This document shows positions 44,554 through 53,545 of a DNA stretch of 64,000 nucleotides, one piece after another; the first letter of the stretch is position 1; each line of letters begins with the position of its first letter. The DNA comes from a bacterium (GTDB lineage Bacteria > UBA8248). The notes under the pieces were generated by a model. It was not told the origin of the DNA, searched no databases, and saw only the letters and a program-made list of their open reading frames with translations. Made by a program: the position numbers and the translations under genes. The stretch lies in the NCBI GenBank assembly GCA_022828125.1, contig JAJEJD010000020.1, positions 434,001-498,000 of the forward strand. The letters run 5' to 3'.

Positions 44554-46335
44554 TTACTCACGACTTCGCCCGCCCGGGTCTCTTTTCGAGGGCCACGCGG
44601 CGCCGCCTTCCGCCGGGATTGCTTCTTCGGAATTCTCCGCAGACGATTCGCCGGGAAAATCATCCAGGGGCGATTCGGCGATCGGGACGATTCCCGGGCC
44701 AAGCTCCTCGAAATCATCCTCCCCGGCCGGGCCCGGGCGCGGAGAGGAGCGCCTGCGCCATCCGTCTCTGATGGAAGGCTTCGGCATGGATCGCGCCATT
44801 ATCTCGCGAGCCCCCCTGAGATGAGCGTTCACGGGATTCGAAAAGCTCCGCTTCAATGAAACCATTGCGCGAACCACCTCGCCCGTGAGGCTTTTGGGCC
44901 GGCAGGCATTTCCATTCATGAGAATAGAGAATGCGAGGATTTCCCCGTTTTCGGCGGCCGCATACCCGCTGAAGGCGCGTACGCCGTTCAACACGCCCGT
45001 CTTCACCCGCACCCGGCGCGAATCGACTCCCCGGCGGCGTCTTTTCTTCACCGTGCCGTCCACGCCGAACACAGCCAGCGACGCCATGTACTCCGGCCGC
45101 AGCCTGAAATCGTTGTGCGCCGCTTCGAGCAAAGTCGCCAAAGCGCGCGGCGAGGAGCGGTTCATCCTGCTCAGGCCCGAGCCATCGGCGAGGGCGATCT
45201 CTTTCGCCGAGACGCCGGCGGAGATCAGAAAATCCCGCACGACGCGCAGGCCTTTTTCCGCGGTGCCCGGCGCGCCGTGCGTTTCGGCGCCCATCGTCTT
45301 GAGAACCTGTTCGGCCACGAAATTGTTGCTGAACTTGTTGAGTCCGCTCACCACCTCGCTCAGGGGCGGCGAGAGGTTTCGCGCGAGAAGCTTCGCATCC
45401 GGCGGTGTGGCGGCCCGCCGTATCCCTCCCTTCAAAACGATTCCCTGCTTCTCGAACTCGGCGGCGACTGCCCCGGCGGTGAAGGCGGCCGGGTCCGTGA
45501 CGGGCACCCGGTACGTCCGCATTCTGTTTCCCGCCGGAAACAATCCGCCGATCTGAACGACATCCTTTCCTTTGGATCGCCTGCGCCCGAGCCGGATTTT
45601 CAAGCTCCTGCGCGAGGTCTTCACCTTCGCCCGGAGGCGAAGCGCGCGCGAAGGCGGCTCGAGGTTCACCACGGCGGGCCTGCCGACTCCATCTCCCGGA
45701 GCCACGAGCACGTTTGCGAGACCAAAATTCAGGGACAATGCCCCGTGCGGCGCCAGATAGGGCCGGATGGATCGGCCCACGCGCCACCCCCGCCCATGTT
45801 TCTTATCGTCGAAAAACGTATCGTCCGCCACCAGGTCGCCCTCGATGCGCCTCACCCCGCGCAGCTTGAGGCGGCGAACGAAGTCGCGCATCTTTTCATG
45901 CACGAACAGCGGGTCGCCGTAGCCCTTGAGATAAATGTCGCCCCGCAGGACGCCGCCACGAACCCTGCCCTTCGCATAAAAATCGGTGGCGAAGCGGTAG
46001 TCCGGCCCCAGGCGCGCGAGCGCGGCGGCGGCCGTGAAGAGTTTCACGTTCGACGCAGGAATCCGCTTTGTAGCGGCGTTATGGGAATAAAGCGTCTGCG
46101 CTGTGGAAACCGAGCGAATGTAAAGACCCAGGCGTCCGGGGCGGACGCACTGCCTTTTTACGGCGCGCTTCACCCTGGCCTTGAAGGCGGCCCTGGAAGT
46201 AACGCCTTTTTTCGTTGCACGCCTTTTTTTCGCGGCGGAGGCGTCCGACGCGCTCAAGGCGGTGAGGCACAGAATCATCGCCCAAAGGGAAAGCCTCAAA
46301 AACCGGCCCGTTGAATCCTGCTCCTTTATCCTCAT
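44554..46335 (-). CDS. dacB: PBP4-type D-alanyl-D-alanine carboxypeptidase/endopeptidase (peptidase S13)
   Basis: 593 residues. Signal peptide about 12-35 (LSLWAMILCLTALSASDASA), then a Lys/Arg-rich stretch. S-x-x-K at Ser95-Lys98 (PASNVKLF), S-x-N in KFSNNFVAEQ, K-T-G in VRVKTGVLNGV: complete penicilloyl-serine transferase set. It trims or cleaves peptidoglycan in the periplasm. About 90 residues after the catalytic domain form a low-complexity tail rich in Arg, Pro, Glu and Ser not usual in the family. Follows the selenoprotein gene by 50 bases, probably one unit. Confidence 0.9.
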   Translation of the reverse strand: MRIKEQDSTGRFLRLSLWAMILCLTALSASDASAAKKRRATKKGVTSRAAFKARVKRAVKRQCVRPGRLGLYIRSVSTAQTLYSHNAATKRIPASNVKLFTAAAALARLGPDYRFATDFYAKGRVRGGVLRGDIYLKGYGDPLFVHEKMRDFVRRLKLRGVRRIEGDLVADDTFFDDKKHGRGWRVGRSIRPYLAPHGALSLNFGLANVLVAPGDGVGRPAVVNLEPPSRALRLRAKVKTSRRSLKIRLGRRRSKGKDVVQIGGLFPAGNRMRTYRVPVTDPAAFTAGAVAAEFEKQGIVLKGGIRRAATPPDAKLLARNLSPPLSEVVSGLNKFSNNFVAEQVLKTMGAETHGAPGTAEKGLRVVRDFLISAGVSAKEIALADGSGLSRMNRSSPRALATLLEAAHNDFRLRPEYMASLAVFGVDGTVKKRRRRGVDSRRVRVKTGVLNGVRAFSGYAAAENGEILAFSILMNGNACRPKSLTGEVVRAMVSLKRSFSNPVNAHLRGAREIMARSMPKPSIRDGWRRRSSPRPGPAGEDDFEELGPGIVPIAESPLDDFPGESSAENSEEAIPAEGGAAWPSKRDPGGRSRE

Positions 46336-46385: not shown

Positions 46386-46934
46386 TCACAAGAAAGCGAG
46401 GGCCTGCATCACCTGCTGAACCGAGGGGCGGTCGCTGGGGTATTTGCCCACGTGAACGTAGCGAACCACGCCGCTCTTGTCGATGATGATGGTGGCGGGC
46501 CGGGCGATTCCTTCTCTGGGATGCAGCACCCCGAAGTGTTGAATGATTCGCTTCTTCGGGTCCGAAATCAACCGATACCGGATGCCCAACTCCCGCGTCG
46601 TCTTGTTCATTTCAAGCGCATTGTCCGCGCTGATGGCGACGATTTCGGTCTGCAGCCGATGAATTTTTTCGGAAAATCTCTGGAACTCGACGAGTTGCCG
46701 CTGGCAGATCACTCAGAAGTGACCCCGATAGAAGACCATCACGAGGTTCTTTTTGTCCTTGAGTTCGGAGAGCTTGAAGCCCTGTATCTCGAAATCACGC
46801 GCCTCCTCCCCCACCTTGGGACGGTTTTCATCGAAAGGCGCCGCCGCCCCCATGCCCGCACCCACGAGGACGAAAGCGAGCGCCAACACCGCCGGACGCA
46901 TGGTTCGCGCCAAATGATTCCTGCTCCATCTCAT
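46386..46934 (-). CDS. Peroxiredoxin/thioredoxin-like selenoprotein with in-frame TGA (U-x-x-C)
   Basis: One continuous 182-residue protein is interrupted only by a TGA at codon 74. Before it: an exported N-terminus (about 12-33) and ARDFEIQGFKLSEL...NLVMVFYRGHF; after it: VICQRQLVEFQRF and a normal AhpC/TSA remainder (DPKKRIIQHFGVLHP, PATIIIDKSGVVRYVHVGK). Relatives read FYRGxWCPxCxxQL, so the TGA sits exactly on the first redox Cys, giving U-V-I-C. A hairpin with a G-U apical loop follows (see SECIS entry). GGAGG is nine bases before the ATG. Likely a periplasmic or membrane-anchored thiol peroxidase. selA, selB, selC and selD are not in the window. A disabled gene is the alternative but less likely. 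Confidence 0.85.
46684..46696 (-). promoter_or_regulatory. SECIS-like hairpin downstream of the in-frame TGA
   Basis: On the minus strand AACTC-GTC-GAGTT forms a perfect five-base-pair stem with a three-base loop starting with GU, beginning 17 bases after the TGA; the loop starts at +22. A lower helix TCTG/CAGA can pair outside it. Bacterial SECIS elements have this position and a G in the first loop bases. Confidence 0.7.
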
Positions 46935-47062
46935 CGGGAAAAACCTCCAAGCCGTTGAACCGGAAAATCACGCCGAGGCGAATCTTAATCCGCCCGGAGC
47001 GGGCTGTAAACCACGAGGGTGCGCCGCGTTGACGATGGGGCGCAGCGTGTGCGAATCTCCAG

Positions 47063-48643
47063 ATGTCTCCCGCCCGCCGGTATGCTCAGGTGAGAAACAA
47101 ATCGCTTGCTCTCGTGGCCCTCATGCTGGCGTACGCCGCTTTATCCGCCTGCGGGGAGAAGGGTGCAACCAAAGGCGACACCATCGTCGTCGGCATCGGA
47201 ACCAACCCCACGCAACTCGACCCGAGGCTGTCGCAGGACGCCATCTCCTCCAAGGTGCAGCGCTTCATCTTCAGCCGCCTGATATCGAAGGATCACGAGG
47301 GGCGCATCGTCCTGGAACTCGCCGAGAAATGGGAGCGGCCCACGCCCCTCGTCCACCGCTTCGAACTCAGACGCGGGGTGCGGTTCCACAACGGCGAAGC
47401 CCTCACCGCATCGGACGTGAAATACACCTTCGAATCCATTCGAGACCCCTCTCTCGCCTCGCCCAAGGCGGCGGGACTCAAGGAACTCGCGCGCATCGAA
47501 ACGCCCACGCCGCACAGTGTCGTCTTTCACCTCACAGAACCCTCCGCCTCGTTCGCGGAATCGCTGATGGTCGGCATCCTCCCGGAAAGCGCGCGCGAAG
47601 CGGGGAGCCGTTTCGCAGAGAAACCAATCGGAACTGGCCCGTTTCAGTTCGTGGAGTTCGCGCCGGACGTACGAATCGCACTCAAGGCGTTTCCCGGCCA
47701 TTTCGCCGGCAAACCCGCTTACGAGAGCCTCGTCTTCCGGATCCTGCCGGAGGAGACCATCCGCGTCCTGGAACTCGAAAGCGGAGGCGTCGACTTCCTC
47801 CAGAACGCCTTTTCCCCCGATATTCTGCCGCGCTTCATCCAGAACAAGCGGCTCAAGATTCGAAAGCGCCTGGGCACGAACTTCACCTACATCGGCTTCA
47901 ACCTGGAAGACCCGATTCTCTCCAAACTCGAGGTGCGGCGCGCGATCGCCCACGCCATCGACAGACGGCCCATCGTGCGCTTCATCCACAAGGGCCTCGT
48001 CCAGGAGGCGGATAGCCTGCTGCCGCCGGATCACTGGGCGCACATAAAAGGTCTGCCGAGCTATGCGCACCGCCCCGCGTTGGCAATGAAGCTTCTCGAC
48101 GAGGCGGGCTATCCCGACCCTGACGGGCCGGGGCCTGAACCGCGCTTCACGCTCGTCTACAAAACCTCGCAAAACGAGCTGGGCCGCCGCATCGCCACCG
48201 TGTTCGGCCATCAACTCGCCCGAGTGGGAATACAGATGAAAATCCGCTCCTATGAATGGGGCACGTTTTTCGGCGACATCAGAAACGGGAACTTCCAGCT
48301 CTACAGCCTGACGTGGGTCGGCATATCCGACCCCGACATCTACCGCTATATCTTTCACAGCCGCTTCATGCCCCCTGCCGGCTTGAACCGCGGCCGCTAT
48401 AAAAACGCGCGCGTGGATGCGCTCCTGGAAGAGGCCCACCAGTCCGCCGAGCCCGAGATTCGCGCCCGCGCCTACGGCGAGACGCAGCGCATCCTGGGCC
48501 GCGAGCTTCCCTACATCAATCTTTGGCACAGCATGAACGTGGCCGTCTTCGACAAACGCATATCGGGCTACCGGGTATATCCGGATGCGGATTTCATCTC
48601 GCTCGCGAGAGCCACCCTCTCTCCGGCGGCGGGCGACAGATGA
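47063..48643 (+). CDS. Peptide/nickel-type ABC transporter substrate-binding lipoprotein
   Basis: 526 residues, SBP_bac_5 family. Lipoprotein signal: ALVALMLAYAALSAC with the lipidated Cys about residue 30. Typical blocks: GTNPTQLDPRLSQDA, FELRRGVRFHNGEALTASDVKYTFE, GTGPFQFVEF and RRAIAHAIDRRPIV. Could bind peptides, nickel chelates or other solutes. An in-frame GTG nine codons later is a possible start, since neither has a strong binding site. Coupled to the permease genes by ATGA overlap. Confidence 0.9.
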   Translation: MSPARRYAQVRNKSLALVALMLAYAALSACGEKGATKGDTIVVGIGTNPTQLDPRLSQDAISSKVQRFIFSRLISKDHEGRIVLELAEKWERPTPLVHRFELRRGVRFHNGEALTASDVKYTFESIRDPSLASPKAAGLKELARIETPTPHSVVFHLTEPSASFAESLMVGILPESAREAGSRFAEKPIGTGPFQFVEFAPDVRIALKAFPGHFAGKPAYESLVFRILPEETIRVLELESGGVDFLQNAFSPDILPRFIQNKRLKIRKRLGTNFTYIGFNLEDPILSKLEVRRAIAHAIDRRPIVRFIHKGLVQEADSLLPPDHWAHIKGLPSYAHRPALAMKLLDEAGYPDPDGPGPEPRFTLVYKTSQNELGRRIATVFGHQLARVGIQMKIRSYEWGTFFGDIRNGNFQLYSLTWVGISDPDIYRYIFHSRFMPPAGLNRGRYKNARVDALLEEAHQSAEPEIRARAYGETQRILGRELPYINLWHSMNVAVFDKRISGYRVYPDADFISLARATLSPAAGDR

Positions 48644-51337: not shown

Positions 51338-51508
51338 CCGCCGCCTCCTTCTCGATGTGCTCCTGAAGGTCCCAGGAATGATTATCAAGTAAAGAAGACC
51401 ATGATTCAAATGAACTCCGGAGTGTATCGACTTTTCACCTGAGTTTTCGTAACCTCAAGAAATCAGAAACAAATGACAATGCGCCAGATCGCCCCACAGG
51501 AATCTTAC

Positions 51509-53545
51509 ATGACGCCCACCCGGGAAATTTACTGGAACATCGTCCTAGGCCCCCTTGTATATCTTTTCGCCGCGGCGGCTATCGGCGTGATGTCCTACGG
51601 CATCTATCAGCGCGTGCGCCTGTGGCGCCTGGGAGGCGGCGAACTCAGAACCGATAATCCGGCGAAGCGACTCTGGGGCGTCGTGGACGAGCTGGTGCTC
51701 CACCGGCGGATGCTGCGGGACACCTACCCCGGCCTCATGCACCTGTTCATCTTCTACGGCTTTTTCGCCGAACTCATCGCCACCTCGATGATTGCCGTTC
51801 AGGAGTGGACGGGAATCCACTACCTCAAGGGAAACCTCTACCTGGGCTACTCGCTTTTGAGCGACGGCTTCGGGCTGCTTGGCATCGTCGGCATCGTGAT
51901 GGCCCTGTGGCGGCGAATTGTGGTGAAGCCCGAGCGCATGAACTCCGTGCTGGACGACTATCTGGCGCTCTGGCTGCTCCTGCTCGTCTTCGTGCAGGGC
52001 TTCGTCGTGGAGGGGCTGCGCATCGCGGCGACGGAACTACGGGACAACCCCTCCCTGGCCCCGTGGTCTCCGGGCGGCTATGCGGTCGCCCTGACCCTCC
52101 AGGGGTTGAGCGTCGAGACGCTCCGGTTCCTCCACCGCATCAACTGGTGGTTCCACGCGATTTCCGCGTTCGTGCTGCTCGGTTACATGGGCTTCGGCAA
52201 ATTCAACCACATCTGGTACGGCCTGTTGAACATGTTCTGCAGAAATCTCGACCCCAGCGGCAAGCTGAGCTTCATCGACATCGAAGCGACGATGGAAGCG
52301 GACCCCGAGGCCATCGAAACCCTGGGCGTGGAGAAGATCGAGGGATACACCTGGAAGAACCTGCTCGATCTGGACGCGTGCACGAACTGCGGGCGCTGCC
52401 AGGACGTCTGCCCCGCCTACATGAGCGGCGTGCCGCTCAGCCCCAAGAAGCTGATTCAGGACATGAAGGCGCATCTGAGCGAGGCGGGACCTGCGGCGCT
52501 TGCGGAAAACGGCGAGGCAAGCGAGAGGCCGCCCCTGTTCGGCGAGCCGGCCGACAATCCGGCTGTCCTGGAAGAAGAACTCTGGGGCTGCCGCACCTGC
52601 GGGGCCTGCCAGCAGGAATGCCCCGTCTTCATCGAGCACATCCCCAAGATGGTGGACATGCGCCGCTACCTGGTGATGATGGAATCGAAGACGAGCGAGG
52701 ACGCGCGCCAGTTCCTGAAGTCGATGGACGAGCGGCTCCACCCCTGGGTGGGCGCGCAGCACAACCGCGAGGAGTGGTACGAGGGGCTCGACGTGAAGGT
52801 CCTCGCCAGCGGCGGGAAGGCGGAATACCTCTACTGGGTGGGCTGTACGGGCTCGATGATCGACCGCAACATCGAGGTATCGAGGGCGATGGTGAAGATT
52901 CTTAATGCCGCGGGCGTGGACTTCGCCATCCTGGGCGCGGAGGAGGTCTGCACGGGCGACCCGGCCCGGCGCGTCGGGGGCGAGTTCACCTTCCAGATGT
53001 GCGCGAAGCAGAACATCGAGACGCTGAACGGCTACGAGGTGGAGAAAATCATCACCACCTGCCCCCATTGCTTCAACACGTACAAGAACGAATACCCCGA
53101 CTTCGGGGGAAACTACGAGGTGGTGCACCACACGCAGCTCATCGCGGAGTTGATAAAATCAAGAAAGCTCAAGCTCAAGAAGTCGCTCGGCTCCCTCACC
53201 TATCACGACCCCTGCTACCTGGGCCGCCACAACGGCGTGTACGACGCCCCGCGCGAGGTTTTACACCAGATATCGGACGGCGGCTTCACCGAACTCGCGC
53301 GCAACCGCTCGCGCTCGCTGTGCTGCGGCGCAGGCGGCGGCTACGCCTGGATGGACGACGAGCCCCAAAAGCGCATCAACCACGAGCGTCTCGAGGACGT
53401 GAAGGCCTGCGGCGCCGAAACAGCCGCCGTGTCGTGTCCTTTCTGCATGCAGATGTTCGATGACGCGCTCAAGGCGCTCGACCCGGAGAAGAACATCCGC
53501 GCCGCCGACATCGCCGAACTCGTCGCCGAGGCGATTGAGGAATAG
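51509..53545 (+). CDS. Membrane-bound Fe-S oxidoreductase, Emo/HdrD-like (ETF:menaquinone oxidoreductase type)
   Basis: 678 residues. Start chosen for AGGA seven bases upstream; an ATG 12 codons earlier is possible. Residues 1-240 hold about five membrane helices of the NarI-like haem b type. Then two 4Fe-4S motifs, C291-x2-C-x2-C-x3-C301-P and C361-x2-C-x2-C-x3-C371-P, and two CCG domains: Cys446, Cys481, CPHC (518-521), and Cys569, CC (605-606), CPFC (643-646). This order matches the membrane partner that accepts electrons from ETF during acyl-CoA oxidation and reduces menaquinone. ETF genes are not adjacent. Confidence 0.85.
   Translation: MTPTREIYWNIVLGPLVYLFAAAAIGVMSYGIYQRVRLWRLGGGELRTDNPAKRLWGVVDELVLHRRMLRDTYPGLMHLFIFYGFFAELIATSMIAVQEWTGIHYLKGNLYLGYSLLSDGFGLLGIVGIVMALWRRIVVKPERMNSVLDDYLALWLLLLVFVQGFVVEGLRIAATELRDNPSLAPWSPGGYAVALTLQGLSVETLRFLHRINWWFHAISAFVLLGYMGFGKFNHIWYGLLNMFCRNLDPSGKLSFIDIEATMEADPEAIETLGVEKIEGYTWKNLLDLDACTNCGRCQDVCPAYMSGVPLSPKKLIQDMKAHLSEAGPAALAENGEASERPPLFGEPADNPAVLEEELWGCRTCGACQQECPVFIEHIPKMVDMRRYLVMMESKTSEDARQFLKSMDERLHPWVGAQHNREEWYEGLDVKVLASGGKAEYLYWVGCTGSMIDRNIEVSRAMVKILNAAGVDFAILGAEEVCTGDPARRVGGEFTFQMCAKQNIETLNGYEVEKIITTCPHCFNTYKNEYPDFGGNYEVVHHTQLIAELIKSRKLKLKKSLGSLTYHDPCYLGRHNGVYDAPREVLHQISDGGFTELARNRSRSLCCGAGGGYAWMDDEPQKRINHERLEDVKACGAETAAVSCPFCMQMFDDALKALDPEKNIRAADIAELVAEAIEE

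Follow-up and report, generated by a model that had tools for sequence, protein, structure and literature searches.

A peroxiredoxin-fold UxxC selenoprotein gene, read through an in-frame UGA, in an uncultured bacterial lineage

Introduction

Peroxiredoxin-like (Prx-like) selenoproteins that carry the PF00578 domain and a UxxC motif, in which U is selenocysteine (Sec), have been in the literature since 2005–2006. They are present in the Sargasso Sea set (PMC1088965), in a survey of 2006 (PMC1794560) and, as Prx-like 1, in the GOS set (PMC2398784), and a 2026 review includes a "Prx-like thiol:disulfide oxidoreductase, UxxC, PF00578", with the motif forms UxxC and UxxU (PMC13188914). The name thiol:disulfide oxidoreductase is, for these proteins, itself a prediction (PMC13188914).

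An earlier note, made from the letters of the window alone (the window being the whole stretch of 64,000 nucleotides analysed here), had proposed a gene of this kind and was right to treat the kind as known. We find that the gene is a genuine Sec-decoded redox enzyme gene that standard gene-calling would split at its UGA, and the present reading corrects what automatic annotation would divide in two.

Results

A single frame crosses an in-frame TGA

Between positions 46934 and 46386 the minus strand of the window forms one frame of 182 codons that, when TGA is translated as U, has TGA at codon 74 as its sole interruption. The frame starts ATG-AGA-TGG, reads FYRGHF-U-VICQRQLVEFQ around codon 74 and ends in AFL. 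Its parts are as follows.

46386..46934, minus strand: coding sequence of the Prx-like selenoprotein; 182 codons, Sec at the 74th, then a TGA stop (translation, Pfam, dN/dS)
46944..46948, minus strand: Shine-Dalgarno sequence GGAGG, 9 nt before the ATG (read from the sequence)
46839..46934, minus strand: probable Sec-pathway (export) signal peptide, codons 1 to about 32 (sequence inspection)
46713..46715, minus strand: UGA codon 74, for the Sec that opens U-V-I-C (TGA or Cys in the homologue column)
46704..46706, minus strand: codon of Cys77, second residue of UxxC (invariant in alignment A1; profile alignment to 2ywn and 4g2e)
46684..46696, minus strand: predicted apical hairpin of a bacterial SECIS, AACUC-GUC-GAGUU (conserved position, covariation, permutation and synonymous-recoding tests)
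46386..46388, minus strand: terminal TGA, stop of the same gene (translation, hairpin scan)

The coordinates of the two abutting frames that the earlier note had joined through a single TGA are thus correct; it gave no strand for the gene, which lies on the minus strand. Its expectation that standard callers would report two short fragments also holds, table 11 yielding a 73-codon piece and a 108-amino-acid open reading frame (46712-46386) with a GTG start.

That GTG directly follows the TGA here (46712-46710), as it would if the locus made two proteins, a short upstream peptide and a separate 108-amino-acid protein. Most orthologues, however, have GTC, AGC, GGC or GGT at this point, none of which is a start codon; the two halves make up one thioredoxin-fold domain, and neither half contains both redox residues. 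We give next to no credence to two proteins and treat the frame as one gene.

Homologues have only TGA or Cys at codon 74

A six-frame search recovered an orthologue with one TGA from 15 of the 18 genomes of the phylum that were searched, the window's own included, at 48–89% identity (one of the 15 is truncated by a contig end). TGA occupies the column of codon 74 in all 15, and also in an orthologue from another family (G065), which likewise has exactly one TGA. A pattern-based scan of GTDB genomes returned 41 relatives, a set whose make-up could be biased by the peptide pattern used; a scan of viral contigs found no relative. The nearest relatives include Nitrospinota/Nitrospinae and Candidatus Tectomicrobia, and TGA is also found in farther members from the Planctomycetota, Verrucomicrobiota, Chloroflexota (SAR202), Myxococcota and Pseudomonadota. 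One of the nearest, MPNJ01 bin107, is a bin of the Nitrospinae/Tectomicrobia group from the sponge Aplysina aerophoba, and the study that described it found SelA and SelB to be enriched in sponge symbionts (PMC5649159). A literature search found no papers on Sec in Nitrospinota and only passing mentions of Sec in Tectomicrobia.

Two homologues, L067 and L068, carry the Cys codon TGC at the site, and no state other than TGA or Cys, TAA and TAG included, was seen among the homologues. The alignment at codon 74 that the earlier note had suggested therefore returns only TGA or Cys, in a gene that is otherwise intact. Across alignment A1, 29 residues are invariant, on both sides of the TGA. Downstream of the TGA, dN/dS against congeners is 0.05–0.14 (Nei–Gojobori), and the sequence past the TGA is under purifying selection.

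These data bear on whether the TGA could be a nonsense mutation in a decaying gene, or a sequencing error. A single TGA does break the frame, as either would produce, but the identical TGA recurs in 15 independently assembled relatives, TAA and TAG never take its place, and invariant residues flank it on both sides. Since the low dN/dS past the TGA excludes a decayed gene, we regard a pseudogene or error as extremely unlikely and retain the reading as an intact gene.

The genome contains a complete Sec decoding machinery

The genome from which the window comes (3.9 Mb, 97% complete) contains a tRNA-Sec scoring 75.9 bits (cut-off 47), which ARAGORN calls as tRNA-SeC with anticodon tca, together with SelA (575.9 bits), SelB (384.5 bits) and SelD (334.9 bits), each above its curated cut-off. 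Contig C30 carries all four genes, and about 0.9 kb separates selA from selB. The search for selA, selB, selC and selD that had been proposed finds the complete set. The earlier note had held that either a genome without Sec machinery or a decayed gene without a Cys alignment would speak against a selenoprotein; what we find is a complete machinery, a TGA/Cys column and purifying selection.

SelA scores above the cut-off in 16 of the 24 relatives and outgroups tested. Three relatives have the TGA gene without a SelA above the cut-off: G004 (79% complete), G015 (67% complete) and G016 (98% complete, 8% contaminated). The missing SelA is easily explained by incompleteness in the first two; G016 has only a weak SelA-like match below the cut-off, probably owing to a gap in the assembly or to contamination by a foreign contig.

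Further in-frame TGAs were observed in this genome. SelD is itself a selenoprotein, with a TGA at the active-site glycine motif AGGUGSK (L019, G000:C30:4116-5078, minus strand) and a 7-bp GGA-loop hairpin 17 nt past it. Outside the window, two adjacent AhpC/TSA-family genes (L115:811-1449 and L115:1595-2143; G000:C17, about 112810-114142) have one in-frame TGA each, in RGHWUPYC and RSHWUPYC, and are probably tandem further Prx-like selenoproteins. By a strict rule the first of the two has no simple SECIS hairpin and the second has one; TGA-bearing pairs like this one occur in several relatives. A codon-usage scan of the window for further TGA-interrupted genes came back near-empty, a result that is uninformative because its threshold also missed the known gene.

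The hairpin of this gene alone is at chance level

The earlier note had described a five-pair hairpin with a GU loop 17 bases after the TGA. Its geometry was read correctly: AACUC-GUC-GAGUU has 5 bp, its first base is the 17th after the TGA, GU opens the loop, and the loop lies about 21–22 nt from the TGA. As evidence from one sequence, it is no better than chance. Among the 1771 TGAs on both strands of the window, 38% precede a hairpin of at least 5 bp under the same loop and spacing rule; dinucleotide-shuffled versions of the region fold at least as well (z from 0.0 to +0.9); and synonymous recodings of its own peptide match the stability of the hairpin, which is weak at about −2.3 kcal/mol for 5 bp, 17% of the time. 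Because these single-sequence tests are at chance level, we do not count the hairpin of this gene alone as evidence.

Published rules for bacterial SECIS elements (bSECIS) specify a loop of 3–9 nt, a stem of 4–16 bp, a G in the first two loop positions and a distance of 16–37 nt from the UGA (PMC13188914). With 5 bp, the loop GUC and 21 nt, the predicted hairpin falls within them. Under the energy rule (at or below −7.5 kcal/mol), the folds of 44, 56 and 60 nt from the UGA reach −7.3, −7.9 and −9.4 kcal/mol, respectively, the best folds lacking the predicted hairpin; it is present in folds of 72 and 91 nt that start upstream of the UGA. At E ≤ 5, Rfam gave chance matches only over the locus, none of them to a bacterial SECIS model. 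No SECIS-like hairpin under the same loop and spacing rule was found after the terminal TGA (46388-46386).

The hairpin covaries across homologues

All 16 close homologues share the offset of stem and loop, the loop reading GUN and, once, GGC. Over 38 distinct sequences, standard pairs make up 92.1% of a 7-pair helix (84.0% when shuffled), cells with double changes number 31 (12.8 when shuffled) and the covariation score is 0.283 (0.139 when shuffled), with 0/500 shuffles in each case; every slid version of the helix scores far lower. Two pairs are especially informative. That between the first base of a Leu codon (C/T) and the third base of a Glu/Gln codon (G/A) is Watson–Crick in 39/39 sequences and synonymous on both sides; that between the third base of a Gln codon (A/G) and the first base of a Leu/Phe codon (T/C) is Watson–Crick in 38/39, the remaining one being a wobble. 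Parsimony on the protein tree places 4 and 4 changes in the former and 7 and 7 in the latter, much of this covariation falling on branches that lack strong support (the starred branches carry only 2 and 1 independent pairs).

When each gene is recoded synonymously with its own codon usage, the real hairpin exceeds the recoded average in stability in every one of the 39 Sec sequences (mean z −2.3). Of the Cys homologues, L067 has a hairpin that is not more stable than its recodings (+0.4) and L068 one that still is (−1.5). Together, the TGA–Cys correspondence and the comparative evidence for the hairpin are far beyond chance.

As a separate observation, the Cys homologue L068:3001-3462 (Gemmataceae) retains a full 7-bp GU-loop hairpin, CAACTG-GTT-CAGTTG, as if Sec had only recently been exchanged for Cys and the SECIS had stayed behind as a fossil.

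A frame that stays open across TGA would fit any read-through, including a genome-wide reassignment of TGA to Trp or Gly or near-cognate read-through. The gene itself ends in TGA, though, and many genes of the window form open frames under table 11, in which TGA is a stop; the homologues align Cys at the site, not Trp or Gly, the hairpin covaries, and the Sec machinery is present. Such other recoding is extremely unlikely, and we read codon 74 as Sec.

We also propose, tentatively and at somewhat less than even probability, that in this exported UxxC enzyme with a peroxiredoxin fold and a thioredoxin-like active site the SECIS hairpin dictates part of the peptide, the flank CQ[RK]QLV[EQ][LF]Q being conserved across several phyla largely as the code for a GU-loop stem. 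If so, the flank should relax once Sec gives way to Cys, as in L067, and L068 would be a recent Cys revertant with a fossil SECIS. The cross-phylum set offers compensatory RNA evolution at wholly synonymous sites, and would show an in-frame SECIS constraining a protein sequence.

A peroxiredoxin scaffold with a predicted thioredoxin-style active site

The Pfam AhpC-TSA domain (PF00578) covers residues 42–160, spanning the TGA, with E = 1.5e-25 and 89.9 bits (cut-off 26). An AlphaFold2 model has a mean pLDDT of 85, above 90 for most of residues 41–182 and below 50 for residues 1–30, and its fold matches AhpE, Bcp and 2-Cys peroxiredoxins. In a profile alignment to 2ywn, the Thr of the PxxxTxxC motif is matched by Sec74, its Pro by Arg70, the peroxidatic Cys by Cys77 and the catalytic Arg of peroxiredoxins by Pro146. 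U74, C77, R145 and P146 are invariant in alignment A1.

The earlier claim that the TGA replaces the first redox Cys, giving U-V-I-C, is borne out by the motif and by the Cys of L067 and L068, and is refined by this alignment: with Sec on the peroxiredoxin Thr and Cys77 on the peroxidatic Cys, "peroxiredoxin-like" names the fold and not the active site. The protein has RxxxUxxC in place of PxxxTxxC and Pro146 in place of the catalytic Arg. Judged from the sequence, a peroxiredoxin scaffold appears to bear a thioredoxin-style active site, made up of UxxC and a Pro that occupies the cis-Pro position.

A true selenoprotein could nevertheless work by the classical thiol peroxidase mechanism of peroxiredoxins. 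By sequence and by fold, the solved structures nearest to it are those of peroxiredoxins and AhpE/Bcp proteins, and Cys77 sits at the peroxidatic position; against this, Sec takes the place of the Thr in PxxxTxxC and Arg that of its Pro, and where peroxiredoxins have the catalytic Arg this protein has a proline, Pro146, as do thioredoxin-like enzymes. We consider the classical mechanism possible but less likely than not. Because Sec stands for the peroxiredoxin Thr and Pro for the catalytic Arg, exported thiol:disulfide-type or non-canonical peroxidase chemistry is favoured, and with it a predicted role in the envelope, where the protein would reduce disulfides or, by a non-canonical route, peroxides. 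On inspection, the N-terminus has a basic n-region, a hydrophobic core and AAA-AP, which suggests export; the N-termini of relatives are also hydrophobic.

Two neighbours flank the gene.

44554..46335, minus strand: D-Ala-D-Ala carboxypeptidase, peptidase S13, downstream (Pfam PF02113, E = 1e-96; same in relatives)
47063..48643, plus strand: family 5 solute-binding protein of a peptide-type ABC transporter, divergent (Pfam PF00496, E = 3.6e-79; conserved in relatives)

The conserved neighbourhood comprises RecJ and the S13 carboxypeptidase downstream and the divergent peptide-type ABC transporter; these conserved neighbours give no pointer to the substrate. Elsewhere in the window, 51473-53545 (plus strand) encodes a heterodisulfide-reductase-like electron carrier of 690 amino acids, in which 4Fe-4S sites and a pair of cysteine-rich CCG domains are combined with a nitrate-reductase-gamma-like membrane domain.

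Discussion

We hold with high confidence that the locus as a whole is explained by SECIS-guided Sec decoding of UGA-74 in an exported selenoprotein of peroxiredoxin fold. The sequence evidence shows that the UGA is recoded, that the machinery is present, that the gene is conserved and that the hairpin covaries; export, the nucleophile and resolver roles and the substrate we infer. During translation, SelB and Sec-tRNA(UCA) would decode UGA-74 as selenocysteine, guided by the short SECIS hairpin with its GU loop 21 nt on, and translation would stop at the terminal UGA, which has no such hairpin. The mature protein is probably located beyond the cytoplasm. There, Sec74 would be the attacking nucleophile and Cys77 the resolving residue, forming a UxxC selenenylsulfide opposite the proline at the cis-Pro position, an assignment made because this is the established chemistry of UxxC/CxxC proteins. 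The enzyme may contribute to redox housekeeping in the envelope, acting as a reductase of the thiol:disulfide type or of peroxides.

Compared with known systems, the protein shares with the Prx-like UxxC selenoproteins the AhpC/TSA domain, the UxxC, the single Sec at the first redox position and the bacterial SECIS rules on loop, stem and spacing. It may differ from the published members in its conserved flank, CQ[RK]QLV[EQ][LF]Q, in its likely signal peptide and in its lineage, the sponge, groundwater and ocean Nitrospinota–Tectomicrobia. With PrxU (Eubacterium acidaminophilum type) it has in common the peroxiredoxin fold and an active-site Sec, but PrxU has its Sec at the peroxidatic position (TxxU), whereas here it is three residues earlier (UxxC); the PrxU model NF040737 scores 39.6 bits, below its cut-off of 270. 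The best NCBIfam match is SelL/SelL-related (NF040769), at 68.1 bits over residues 46–136, below the cut-off of 120. SelL has the motif UxxU, unlike the UxxC found here. Among AhpE/Bcp-type 1-Cys and 2-Cys peroxiredoxins, 3hjp and 4x0x superpose with TM scores of about 0.74 (query) and 0.85–0.87 (target) and an rmsd of 1.6–1.7; this type (3hjp, 4x0x, 2ywn) lacks UxxC/CxxC and has the peroxiredoxin motif and catalytic Arg, both absent here.

The gene does not overturn current knowledge. What it contributes is a well-supported selenoprotein, with a SECIS that can be traced, in an uncultured lineage that counts marine-sponge bins among its nearest relatives. It is a further member of the described Prx-like UxxC selenoproteins, not a classical peroxiredoxin.
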